A stretch of 64,000 nucleotides of DNA from Marinilongibacter aquaticus (GTDB lineage Bacteria > Bacteroidota > Bacteroidia > Cytophagales > Spirosomataceae): contig NZ_CP083757.1 of NCBI RefSeq assembly GCF_020149935.1, positions 1,612,001 through 1,676,000 on the forward strand, in the 5' to 3' direction. The notes beneath the pieces were generated by a model. The model was not told where the DNA came from. It saw nothing but the letters and a program-made list of their open reading frames with translations, and did no database searches. The number at the start of each line of letters is the position of its first letter. Position 1 is the first letter of the stretch. This document shows, piece by piece, positions 3,493 through 6,918 of the stretch. The position numbers and the translations under genes are program-made.

Positions 3493-4404
3493 TTAAAACA
3501 TTCTGCTCAGATTGACATTAAAGCCATTTCTGATTTGCAGTTCTCCCCCACTCAAATTTTGCGAAAGCGGTACTTGTGCAGCCAAATTCAGGGCATACTT
3601 ACCGAAATACACATTCACGCCCCCGTTTGCTGCCAAATAGCCTCCTCCCGTGTTTTCGTTACGTTTTCCATATTGGACATCCTGTTTCTTCCACTCTCCA
3701 AAAAGGCCCAAATTGGGCATAATGTTCACATTGCCCCAATAAATTGACTTAAAAGCCAGCACACTGGTACGCCATTGATTGGCAAATTTATACTCCTGAC
3801 CGTTCGTCCCGTTTAATTTGTACATGGCATTCAGGTTCAAACCCGATTGCCTCCATTTCAAAGTATAGATGGCATTGATCGGAATATCCCACGAGCCCGT
3901 GCCCAATTGAAAATTGGCGTTGGCCACTTCCAAGGCTTCGTATTGATCGTAACGAAATTGCCCCGTAGGGGCTTTTACGCCAAAACCGAGCAGCAAACTG
4001 TGGTTTATTTTCCGAACTTTCACCGTATCCGTAAACGTATTGATGAGGTTGTAATGCACCAACACGCTCAGGTCGCCCAAGCCCGTTTTTTTACTTACAA
4101 AACCATCGGCCAAACGCTCTTGTTGATTTTGGTGCACGGGAGCAAAAAACAACACTTGTGTTTTTTTCATCGGATACAACCTTCCCCAAAGTTCTACGGT
4201 GTGAAAATCTTCCCGTGTTTTGAGGAGTTTACTGCTGATATGAGAATCGTAACTCTGTTGTTTGTAACGTATGCCCATAAATTGCATGTGCGATTGCGGT
4301 AAAATACCGAAAAACGACCCGCCATTGTTGCATCCGCAGATGTCACAGGCCAAACTTTGACTGGCCCAAAAAATAGATATAATAAAGGTTATTCGAAATT
4401 TCAT
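3493..4404 (-). CDS. Outer-membrane beta-barrel-like protein with CDICGC N-terminus
   Basis: A 303-residue exported protein. A signal peptide (about 1-19) is followed directly by a CDICGC motif, so the mature protein starts with a cysteine cluster. The rest alternates amphipathic strands typical of a transporter-like outer-membrane barrel and ends in NLSRMF with a terminal aromatic residue. It follows the MbnH-like gene by five bases and is last in the MbnP operon. The context and the cysteine cluster suggest a role in handling copper or another soft metal at the outer membrane. I do not know a named family for it; the barrel topology is inferred from sequence texture. Confidence 0.75.
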   Translation of the reverse strand: MKFRITFIISIFWASQSLACDICGCNNGGSFFGILPQSHMQFMGIRYKQQSYDSHISSKLLKTREDFHTVELWGRLYPMKKTQVLFFAPVHQNQQERLADGFVSKKTGLGDLSVLVHYNLINTFTDTVKVRKINHSLLLGFGVKAPTGQFRYDQYEALEVANANFQLGTGSWDIPINAIYTLKWRQSGLNLNAMYKLNGTNGQEYKFANQWRTSVLAFKSIYWGNVNIMPNLGLFGEWKKQDVQYGKRNENTGGGYLAANGGVNVYFGKYALNLAAQVPLSQNLSGGELQIRNGFNVNLSRMF

Positions 4405-4409
4405 TTCAT

Positions 4410-5462
4410 TTAAGGTGCTGAAAATTTAGGGTTACGAATGAACGACTCGTCGTTCAGGGTCGCCAAAAAAGCCAATAAATCCTGTTTGTCCTGATCACTG
4501 AGCGGGATGCCCAAACTGGCATTCTGTTTCAATGCCGGATCCAGGTTTTCCGTATCCATCACTCCTTCTGAATAATGATCGAGCACTTCTTCCAAAGTAT
4601 TGAAGCGGCCATCGTGCATATACGGAAACGTATATTTCAAGTTCCGTAAACTCGGCACTTTGAATTTGTACTTGTCGCTTTCAATTTCAGTAATATCGTA
4701 TCTTCCGTAATCGGGATCGCGGTCGAACACCTCCAAACCGTTGTTGCGGTACGATCCATCGGTAAACAAATCCGAAGCATGGCAGGTTGCACATTTGGCT
4801 TGATAGAGCTTCAAGCCAGCCATTTCAGAAGCCGATAAACTGACACCGTTTTCCTGCCTTATATACTGATCGTACTTTGCGTTGTCCGAAATCAAAGCGT
4901 TCATGAATTGGCTCAAGGCCTTTAAAAAGCGATCGCTGGTGATCTCTTTTGTACCAAAAGCATTTTCGAATAAATCCGGATACTTCTCGTCTTTTTCCAG
5001 TTTCTCCATGATGGAAACCAAACTCTCGTCCATTTCCTGAGGATTTGTAATCGGCACAATCGGAAACAAATCCAGATTGAAGACTCCACCATCCCAAAGA
5101 AAAGATTTCATAAACGCCGTATTCTGTACTGCGGGAGCATTTCTCCTTCCAATTTGGCCATCAATCCCGTGGCTTAGGGCGTGTCCGTGATGCGTAAACG
5201 CATAGTACTGATTGTGGCATTCCGCACAACTGATGGTATTGTCTCGAGAAAGCCTTGAATCGTAAAACAACTTTCGCCCCAATTGAAAACCTGCTTCGGT
5301 TTCTTCATTTTTCGAGAAATCGTATACGGCATTGGGGAAATTCTCGGGTTGATAGAACAAAGGCTTATCTGGTTCCGGTTCGGCAGGGGCCGACGAGCCT
5401 CCACAGCTCGCCAACACCACTGCCAAAACAGAAAATACAATATTTGTGATCTTAAAATACAT
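4410..5462 (-). CDS. MbnH/MauG-like diheme cytochrome c peroxidase family lipoprotein
   Basis: A 350-residue periplasmic lipoprotein (lipobox ending at C20). Two c-type heme sites are seen: CAECH at 79-83 and CATCH at 224-228. The SLRN...PYMHDGRF segment around 271-287 is the distal part of the second domain in this family. Known relatives either reduce peroxide (CcpA), oxidise tryptophan of a partner (MauG), or, when encoded beside MbnP, convert a tryptophan of MbnP to kynurenine to make a copper site (MbnH). Its start codon overlaps the stop of the MbnP-like gene by one base (TAATG), so translation is coupled. The MbnH role is therefore favoured, but peroxidase activity is not excluded. Confidence 0.85.
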   Translation of the reverse strand: MYFKITNIVFSVLAVVLASCGGSSAPAEPEPDKPLFYQPENFPNAVYDFSKNEETEAGFQLGRKLFYDSRLSRDNTISCAECHNQYYAFTHHGHALSHGIDGQIGRRNAPAVQNTAFMKSFLWDGGVFNLDLFPIVPITNPQEMDESLVSIMEKLEKDEKYPDLFENAFGTKEITSDRFLKALSQFMNALISDNAKYDQYIRQENGVSLSASEMAGLKLYQAKCATCHASDLFTDGSYRNNGLEVFDRDPDYGRYDITEIESDKYKFKVPSLRNLKYTFPYMHDGRFNTLEEVLDHYSEGVMDTENLDPALKQNASLGIPLSDQDKQDLLAFLATLNDESFIRNPKFSAP

Positions 5463-6280
5463 TATTCAGCATGATGGTCATTGTGCACATGATCCACCAC
5501 AAATCCAGTTTTATAGTTGTCGGCTACCACAATACCCGAGGCCGGACTCATGCGAACAGGCATTTCATTCAATGAAAGCGTATTGGGGCCATCCATCACC
5601 GTCTTCAGGTCAAAAATCATATGCACTTCTGGGGCAATCTCGGCATTCACCGTAGCCATTTGGTCCATATTCAATGAAACGGTACGTAGGTTGTTCGCCG
5701 TTGCCGCTTCGTAACCGCCAAATCCACCAATGTGGTATTTGAAATCTTTATCTTCTGGATTATCCTTTACAATGGCCGCTGAACTTCCTTCCATTTTGAA
5801 GAAAATATAACCTGAATTCCAGGCCCACCACATATTGTCGTCACCATAGGATGCGGGATCCAAAACACCCGTTCTTTCTGATACATCGGTTACAGACTTC
5901 AAACTGTCCACGCCAATCATGAAACTAATTTGTGCATAATCTCCACCCGGCACATCTTTCAGTTCAATCACCTGACTGTTTTCGTCTTCCTCTTTGATCA
6001 AAAAATACTGATCTGGAAACTCAATCACCTGCCCGTCTGAACTTGTAAGTTTTAGGTTCGACACAAAATAATTCAAACGAGACACAGTATACACCTCGCC
6101 CGCGGTATTGGTGATTTCCGTTTGTCCCAAAACAATCTTATCCAAACCGGCTCTGTTGTCGAATTCCACGAAAACCGAATTGCTACCCGAGGCATCCACA
6201 TTTTCTTCCTTATCGCAGGAGTTCAAAAAAAACACGCCCAATAAAAGACTTACTACAAGAAGTTTACTACTATTTTTCAT
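5462..6280 (-). CDS. MbnP-family copper-binding lipoprotein
   Basis: A 272-residue lipoprotein (lipobox cysteine C22) of the MbnP family (TIGR04052-type), periplasmic or surface-exposed. The family hallmark is the tryptophan-rich MWWAWNSGYIFFKMEG segment at 150-165, with W151, W152 and W154. In characterised MbnP a tryptophan is oxidised to kynurenine by MbnH and helps bind copper. H183 and H220 are further candidate ligands. The C-terminus is histidine-rich (DHVHNDHHAE, H264/H266/H269/H270), which could bind metal by itself. It is first in a coupled operon with the diheme enzyme and the CDICGC protein. No methanobactin precursor or synthesis gene is visible nearby. Confidence 0.88.
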   Translation of the reverse strand: MKNSSKLLVVSLLLGVFFLNSCDKEENVDASGSNSVFVEFDNRAGLDKIVLGQTEITNTAGEVYTVSRLNYFVSNLKLTSSDGQVIEFPDQYFLIKEEDENSQVIELKDVPGGDYAQISFMIGVDSLKSVTDVSERTGVLDPASYGDDNMWWAWNSGYIFFKMEGSSAAIVKDNPEDKDFKYHIGGFGGYEAATANNLRTVSLNMDQMATVNAEIAPEVHMIFDLKTVMDGPNTLSLNEMPVRMSPASGIVVADNYKTGFVVDHVHNDHHAE

Positions 6281-6333
6281 TTAAAGTAAATACGTTAAAA
6301 TTTGGTGGTGCGTATATGCACACCGACAATTTC

Positions 6334-6354
6334 GTGCCGCTCTGTATGCGGCAC
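6334..6354. other. Perfect 7-bp hairpin in the spacer upstream of the MbnP operon
   Basis: GTGCCGC (6334-6340), seven-base loop, GCGGCAC (6348-6354). No T-run follows on either strand, so it is not a simple terminator. A second weak hairpin (GGTG/CACC, 6307-6324) sits beside it. Confidence 0.45.
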
Positions 6355-6360
6355 ATTTTC

Positions 6361-6386
6361 ATATACACGTATATTCCAGAATATAC
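6361..6386. promoter_or_regulatory. Two overlapping perfect palindromes, candidate operator
   Basis: ATATAC-AC-GTATAT (6361-6374) overlaps GTATATTC-CA-GAATATAC (6369-6386); both have perfectly matching arms. They sit 80-105 bases upstream of the MbnP-like start, in the spacer after the three-cysteine gene. Symmetry like this suggests a dimeric regulator; which one is unknown. Confidence 0.45.
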
Positions 6387-6450
6387 TGCACTGGCCATGC
6401 ATCTTCCCTCGTGAGGAAGGCATTGTTTCGGCGAAAGAAGCCGAATGAGA

Positions 6451-6852
6451 TTAGCTCAATACAGATTGCGGGGGATGAAAAACAGATGAAGAGTAGTTTT
6501 GCAAGAAAAATGGGTTTCTATAAAAGACCTTTTGGGCACGCTCTTCAAGCAAATGCCCTCTTTCTTCAAAAGCAAAGTGCACCGTACCCGACAGGCATTC
6601 AAATCCCAAAAGTTTATTGAAAAACTGCGTTTCGGCCTGACGCTCATCTTCTTGTTGAGCCGCTTTTATTTGCTTGGCCAGATAACATTTCCCATCGCAG
6701 TGCAATTCAGGAAACTCTTTATTCACACAATAATTCTTGATGATGAAATCTTTGCGAAGTTGGTAATTGATGAACAAAGTCGGTACAATCATGGCCTTCA
6801 GCCCCAAAATGGCCAAAAGTACAATTGCTCCGATTTGTTTTGTTGCTTTCAT
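6451..6852 (-). CDS. Small membrane-anchored protein with three conserved-type cysteines
   Basis: A 133-residue protein with one N-terminal membrane helix (about 8-28) followed by an exported NYCVNKEFPELHCDGKCYL segment carrying C42, C52 and C56. The HCDGKCYLAKQ pattern recurs in small uncharacterised Bacteroidota proteins. The ATG at 6852 is chosen; the preceding in-frame TTG would add three residues. It lies on the same strand as the MbnP operon, 170 bases upstream, and may be its first gene. The cysteines suggest metal or thiol chemistry, but no function is assigned. Confidence 0.7.
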   Translation of the reverse strand: MKATKQIGAIVLLAILGLKAMIVPTLFINYQLRKDFIIKNYCVNKEFPELHCDGKCYLAKQIKAAQQEDERQAETQFFNKLLGFECLSGTVHFAFEERGHLLEERAQKVFYRNPFFLQNYSSSVFHPPQSVLS

Positions 6853-6918
6853 AAGAAACAAAGATTCGCGACAAAGTTAAGTATGAAATTGCAGTTGTGT
6901 GCATTTATACACAAAAAA

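Follow-up and report, generated by a model that had tools for sequence, protein, structure and literature searches.

In the 64,000-nucleotide stretch of Marinilongibacter aquaticus DNA analyzed here (the window; contig NZ_CP083757.1, positions 1,612,001 to 1,676,000), four genes on the minus strand are transcribed in the order C3, MbnP, MbnH, and barrel. We lean slightly toward reading them as a self-standing copper-acquisition operon of Bacteroidota, controlled by C3 as a copper-sensing leader open reading frame (ORF). The set probably yields a modified, copper-binding protein of the cell surface, with no methanobactin involved. A preliminary description of the window had placed the four genes correctly, and had proposed a self-standing envelope copper system with two additional partners. 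The neighborhoods in other genomes tie both extra genes to the MbnP/MbnH pair, as proposed. C3 had been taken as no more than an anchored partner, whereas a copper-sensing leader ORF better fits its anatomy and the other genes near it.

The barrel gene and the C3 gene are linked to the MbnP/MbnH pair. Two samples were used: 148 evenly drawn Bacteroidota genomes, and the 80 loci that matched MbnH best, which are biased to the window's own type of MbnH. In the even sample, MbnP is present in 39 genomes, C3 in 47, and the barrel in 22. The barrel adjoins MbnP/MbnH in 17 of the 22, and C3 does so in about 20 genomes, as judged from coordinates. All four genes are present in 41 of the 80 best-match loci. 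The exact order of the window is found in 46 of the 141 loci examined; these 46 include Flavobacteriia, Cytophagia, Chitinophagia, and Sphingobacteriia. Such synteny in 46 loci indicates more than chance. The neighborhoods contradict the possibility, allowed for beforehand, that the extra genes have no association with MbnP/MbnH.

C3, a putative copper-responsive leader ORF

C3 (6451-6852; this and all window features below are on the minus strand unless noted) is a 133-aa ORF for a small exported or anchored protein of no known family. There was no convincing match to it in Pfam, NCBIfam, or PDB. The C3 family contains 107 distinct members. Three cysteines had been described at first; the window protein has four, and C42, C52, and C56 are the only ones conserved among 30 sequences. 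They constitute the motif C42-x9-C52-x-G-K-C56 (6685-6729), in which the three cysteines and G54 are invariant in these sequences. The spacing C-x9-C-x-G-x-C is kept in 100 of 102 members. Residues 125-128, near the C-terminus, are FHPP (6469-6480), the proposed arrest motif. Two prolines (PP) are found within the last 14 residues in 105 of 107 C3 proteins, but in only 38 of 2051 other proteins. This enrichment is not circular, because many of the recruiting matches end before query residue 90, yet their loci end in PP. The PP is mostly part of FHPP or FRPP, and in most members it lies 1-4 residues ahead of the stop codon. The linker between the cysteine motif and PP is 64-70 residues long in 97 of 102 members, yet it is the least conserved part of the sequence.

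CutF-like proteins were selected in PMC9973294 by a length below 150 aa, an N-terminal export segment, a Cys motif, PP within the 15 C-terminal residues, and a same-strand gene downstream. C3 shows all of these features, with the export segment judged by hydrophobicity alone (a hydrophobic N-terminal segment is present in 102 of 107 members). In 100 of 107 cases, C3 and the next gene share a strand, against a background of 67%.

From this anatomy, C3 would most likely be a copper-responsive leader ORF working like CruR of Bordetella, a DUF2946 protein, or CutF of Rhodobacter, rather than a chaperone. C3 would be translated first and exported, and its Cys triplet would emerge on the periplasmic side while FHPP sits in the active site of the ribosome. 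With the values stated for CutF in PMC9973294, ~30 residues inside the tunnel and 17 spanning the membrane, a stall at PP would put the Cys motif of C3 on the periplasmic side, directly beyond SecY. At low copper, the ribosome would stall at FHPP and the downstream genes would be on. Copper bound to the Cys motif would relieve the stall and switch them off; this sign is borrowed from CruR. In CruR, copper relieves the stall and lowers expression, whereas in CutF, copper prolongs the stall and raises expression. For uptake genes, the CruR sign is expected. The chances are about even that C3 is an undescribed Bacteroidota family that senses copper as a nascent chain, stalls on F[HRK]PP, reads periplasmic copper through the Cys-PP distance of ~67 residues, and governs both OprC-type receptor operons and MbnP/MbnH operons.

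The C3 loci outside MbnP/MbnH operons bear on this regulation. A TonB receptor of one cluster is found in 17 of 20 such loci, and the receptors of 10 of the 20 have the CxxxM motif of OprC (C-x-x-[RK]-M-D). One C3-linked receptor matches OprC (6fok) at E 3.5e-38, and its C, M, and HxM residues align with the OprC ligands. The copper ligands of OprC are Cys143, Met147, His323, and Met325 (PMC8610252). Genes for PepSY_TM, SCO1, YtkA-like, YHS, and heavy-metal P-ATPase proteins are further neighbors of C3. The neighbors of CruR reported by Roy et al. 2022 (PMC9426467) are much the same, MbnP/MbnH-like genes included.

Alternatively, C3 could pass copper on to MbnP, receptors, or SCO as a common type of periplasmic chaperone or Cys relay anchored in the membrane, its PP end being structural. 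The N-terminal anchor, the invariant Cys triplet, and the copper-related neighbors are compatible with a chaperone, and C3 is often embedded between SCO or superoxide dismutase (SOD) genes and MbnP. What a chaperone leaves unexplained is the variable tail that in most members ends in PP shortly before the stop, almost the same number of residues beyond the cysteines each time, together with the long spacer after C3. We regard the chaperone as doubtful. Median gaps are 134 nt between C3 and MbnP, -1 nt between MbnP and MbnH, and 6 nt between MbnH and the barrel; a gap of at least 60 nt is seen in 89% of C3-MbnP junctions, but in 12% of MbnP-MbnH junctions. In the window, the C3-MbnP spacer is 170 nt long (6281-6450) and strongly foldable as RNA (folding z -3.7, reached by 0 of 200 shuffles).

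MbnP, MbnH, and the barrel protein

MbnP (5462-6280) is a lipoprotein of 272 aa. It matches PF20243 with 169 bits, above the gathering cut-off of 27 (E 1e-49). Its AlphaFold2 model (pLDDT 88.6) has Methylosinus MbnP (7l6g) as the best fold, with a Z score of 18.4 over 215 residues and a root-mean-square deviation of 2.9; this Z score is far above that of every other match. In 26 MbnP relatives, M150, W152, W154, G157, Y158, E164, G165, and H183 are invariant or nearly so. The WWAW segment emphasized in the preliminary description is conserved in part: W154 is invariant and W152 is kept in at least 90% of the 26 sequences, but W151 is not conserved. The WxW motif W152-A-W154 (5819-5827) is a candidate kynurenine site. 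Likewise, the C-terminus first described as His-rich holds a conserved HxH (H264-V-H266 within DHVHND; 5483-5491), but this is largely limited to the subgroup that bears the barrel. The MbnPs of Pseudarcicella and Flectobacillus are the nearest to that of the window.

MbnH (4410-5462) is a di-haem MauG-type enzyme and lipoprotein of 350 aa. It matches CCP_MauG (PF03150), and among solved structures the MbnH entry 6e1c is closest to it (E 1e-44). C79xxC82H83, C224xxC227H228, and Y297 are invariant in 15 sequences; Y297 aligns with the Met ligand of the peroxidase 1iqc, and thus both haem motifs and the MauG-type Tyr ligand are present. The coupling of MbnH to MbnP by TAATG, described earlier, is seen as an overlap of stop and start at ~5460-5464. 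By MauG-type bis-haem chemistry, MbnH would oxidize a tryptophan of the WxW motif of MbnP, with kynurenine as the expected product, and would so build the copper site.

The two lipoproteins differ after the lipobox. In MbnP, the lipobox Cys begins C-D-K-E-E (6203-6217), an exact match to the surface-export signal C-X-K-(D/E)2 (LES) defined in Capnocytophaga (PMC5080379). In MbnH, the lipobox is followed by GGSSA, with no surface-export signal. It is probable from these signals that MbnP is surface-exposed and MbnH periplasmic, so the modification of MbnP would precede its export. The modified MbnP, displayed on the surface, would then hand copper to the barrel.

MbnH may act on MbnP for another purpose, as an oxidative-stress or peroxide/redox module or in copper detoxification, and not for uptake. 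MbnH belongs to the MauG/peroxidase superfamily, a SOD-like gene is directly upstream in Chryseobacterium, and P-ATPase and RND genes occur in some neighborhoods. The replacement of the peroxidase Met ligand by Tyr in MbnH and the position of C3 relatives ahead of OprC-type import receptors argue for uptake, and such a redox or detoxification role appears improbable.

The barrel gene (3493-4404; 303 aa) begins 5 nt after MbnH. The AlphaFold2 model of its product (pLDDT 78) is a 12-stranded outer-membrane barrel, for which the best Foldseek matches are FapF (5o65) and the COG4313 channel 4rl8 (E 1.5e-8). The window protein has no Pfam match, and 5 of 17 relatives match PF13557 (Phenol_MetA_deg). 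In the window, the signal peptide is followed by a mature N-terminus starting with CDICGC (4330-4347), as described at first; relatives often have an inserted segment before it, so that it is better called a motif of an N-terminal extension. C20 and C23 are invariant in 17 sequences, and one lineage lacks the third Cys (CDFCNN).

HxH is present in 52 of 62 MbnPs with a barrel, and in 2 of 59 without (Fisher p 3e-21, with no correction for descent). In the MbnP tree, HxH and the barrel change together in 3.7 of 4 supported cases, and none shows the opposite. These patterns hint that the His tail of MbnP and the Cys motif of the barrel may cooperate in the hand-over of copper. The barrel could instead be an unrelated channel kept through inheritance of the operon, with no role in copper. 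The lack of a Pfam family for the window barrel, the change to CDFCNN, and the 10 barrel-linked MbnPs without HxH agree with an unrelated channel. They are to be weighed against the adjacency of the barrel to MbnP/MbnH in most barrel-bearing genomes and its association with HxH, and we consider a barrel without a copper role unlikely, about as much so as a C3 chaperone.

Several observations weigh against a copper-acquisition operon under a C3 leader. MbnP and MbnH score below the cut-offs of their NCBIfam models, TIGR04052 (44 vs 140 bits; an equivalog model) and TIGR04039 (232 vs 363 bits; still the best of all models for MbnH). Few independent changes underlie the link between HxH and the barrel (sign test p 0.125 with 4 supported pairs). 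About half of the C3-linked receptors are without the OprC motif. C3 was rejected as a member of DUF2946 (PF11162): there was no profile match, and hhalign against a Bacteroidota DUF2946-like set was not significant. In place of the arrest motif RAPP or RGPP, it has F[HRK]PP, FHPP in the window. We know of no ribosome arrest by F[HRK]PP, and no copper data were found for any Bacteroidota member. C3 is not strictly the first gene: for 49 of 104, another gene on that strand lies no more than 150 nt upstream. A structured attenuator in the spacer was also rejected as a hallmark of the family, since 77 spacers differ little from 90 controls and their RNA structure is barely above that of the controls (p 0.048).

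Genomic context and additional observations

Downstream of the barrel are a gene for dihydrofolate reductase and then a ferritin gene; upstream of C3 is a DUF2480 gene. The genome of M. aquaticus has one MbnP and one C3. In the whole genome there was no match to the MbnB/DUF692 family (PF05114), which indicates no methanobactin locus and agrees with the preliminary description, where none was visible. In the same genome, there was no match to DUF2946, and no OprC-type receptor was recognized with TIGR01778, whose best match (6e-8) is at the background level for TonB receptors. A PepSY_TM gene is at 365-1531 near the operon, with a ferritin gene on the other strand intervening; elsewhere, this family follows C3-linked and CruR-linked receptors.

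The sequence GTGTGCATATACGCAC is found at 6308-6323, just upstream of MbnP, and a copy with three mismatches is on the plus strand at 6897-6912, upstream of C3. The 64 kb contain no further match (0.22 expected), and the two may represent a regulator site.

In five loci, two MbnH genes or two MbnP/MbnH pairs are arranged in tandem beside the barrel. In six loci with Chryseobacterium-type operons, a gene for a 224-aa protein, SOD-like by sequence, ends 3-4 nt before C3. A gammaproteobacterial record, CP034120.1 (Glaciecola amylolytica), contains C3, MbnP, and MbnH of the Bacteroidota type, either by transfer or because the genome is mislabeled. In five other loci, small His-rich proteins ending in PSRAPP or RGPP, with weak matches to DUF2946, are encoded near TonB-receptor or CobW-like genes, and are likely to be further metal leaders. 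This separate RAPP/RGPP set, related to DUF2946, suggests that Bacteroidota also have classical leaders.

Comparison with known systems

The window pair resembles MtMbnP (7l6g) and MbnH (6e1c), with the models PF20243 and TIGR04052/TIGR04039, in its fold, the WxW motif, and the adjacent di-haem enzyme with two CxxCH motifs and a Tyr ligand. It differs in the absence of the MbnB family from the genome, in its NCBIfam scores, and in having no Cys beyond the lipobox, whereas the PDB name for the proteobacterial 7l6g is "four-Cys motif protein". The window set adds the HxH tail, the LES, the barrel, and C3. The preliminary description had treated MbnP/MbnH without methanobactin as unusual, but the pair was already reported to be conserved far beyond methanobactin producers (Kenney & Rosenzweig 2013, PMC3621798). 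CorA/CorB and MopE of methanotrophs also combine a surface copper protein having a kynurenine site with a neighboring di-haem enzyme (PMC3912023, PMC3621798). They are not markedly similar to MbnP in sequence according to PMC3621798, the description on which this comparison is based. The barrel resembles channels of the COG4313/FapF type (4rl8, 5o65) in its 12 predicted strands, and differs by the N-terminal CDxCGC extension and the operon with MbnP/MbnH.

Judged by the papers searched, two elements are new: the four-gene Bacteroidota operon with the pairing of HxH and CDxCGC, and the C3 family, which has the marks of a copper leader and is common to OprC-type and MbnP/MbnH operons. CruR at the head of MbnP/MbnH operons is already known in other bacteria (PMC9426467). 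In the main text of PMC9973294, PF20243 and di-heme were not found where searched, while MbnP was not searched by name. PMC9973294 reports many Bacteroidota CutF-like proteins (list D), which may include C3, so the novelty of C3 is partly uncertain. Copper uptake and sensing in Bacteroidota are poorly known. A leader role of C3, if true, would place MbnP/MbnH in one regulon with the receptors for copper import, a link that would bear on the role of MbnP/MbnH outside methanobactin producers.

Like CruR and CutF, C3 is a small exported protein with a Cys motif, a C-terminal PP, and a fixed Cys-PP spacing, and it is followed on the same strand by copper genes, including those for OprC-type receptors, PepSY_TM, SCO, and MbnP/MbnH. 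In contrast to them, it shows no profile match, has C-x9-C-x-G-K-C instead of CxxC/CxxxC and F[HRK]PP instead of RAPP, and has a Cys-PP distance of ~67 rather than ~45 residues; it is found in Bacteroidota. In a 2025 survey, many lineages had leader ORFs with RAPP/RGPP ahead of copper genes, but Bacteroidota were listed among the exceptions (PMC12992588). C3, with its F[HRK]PP, could fill this gap.

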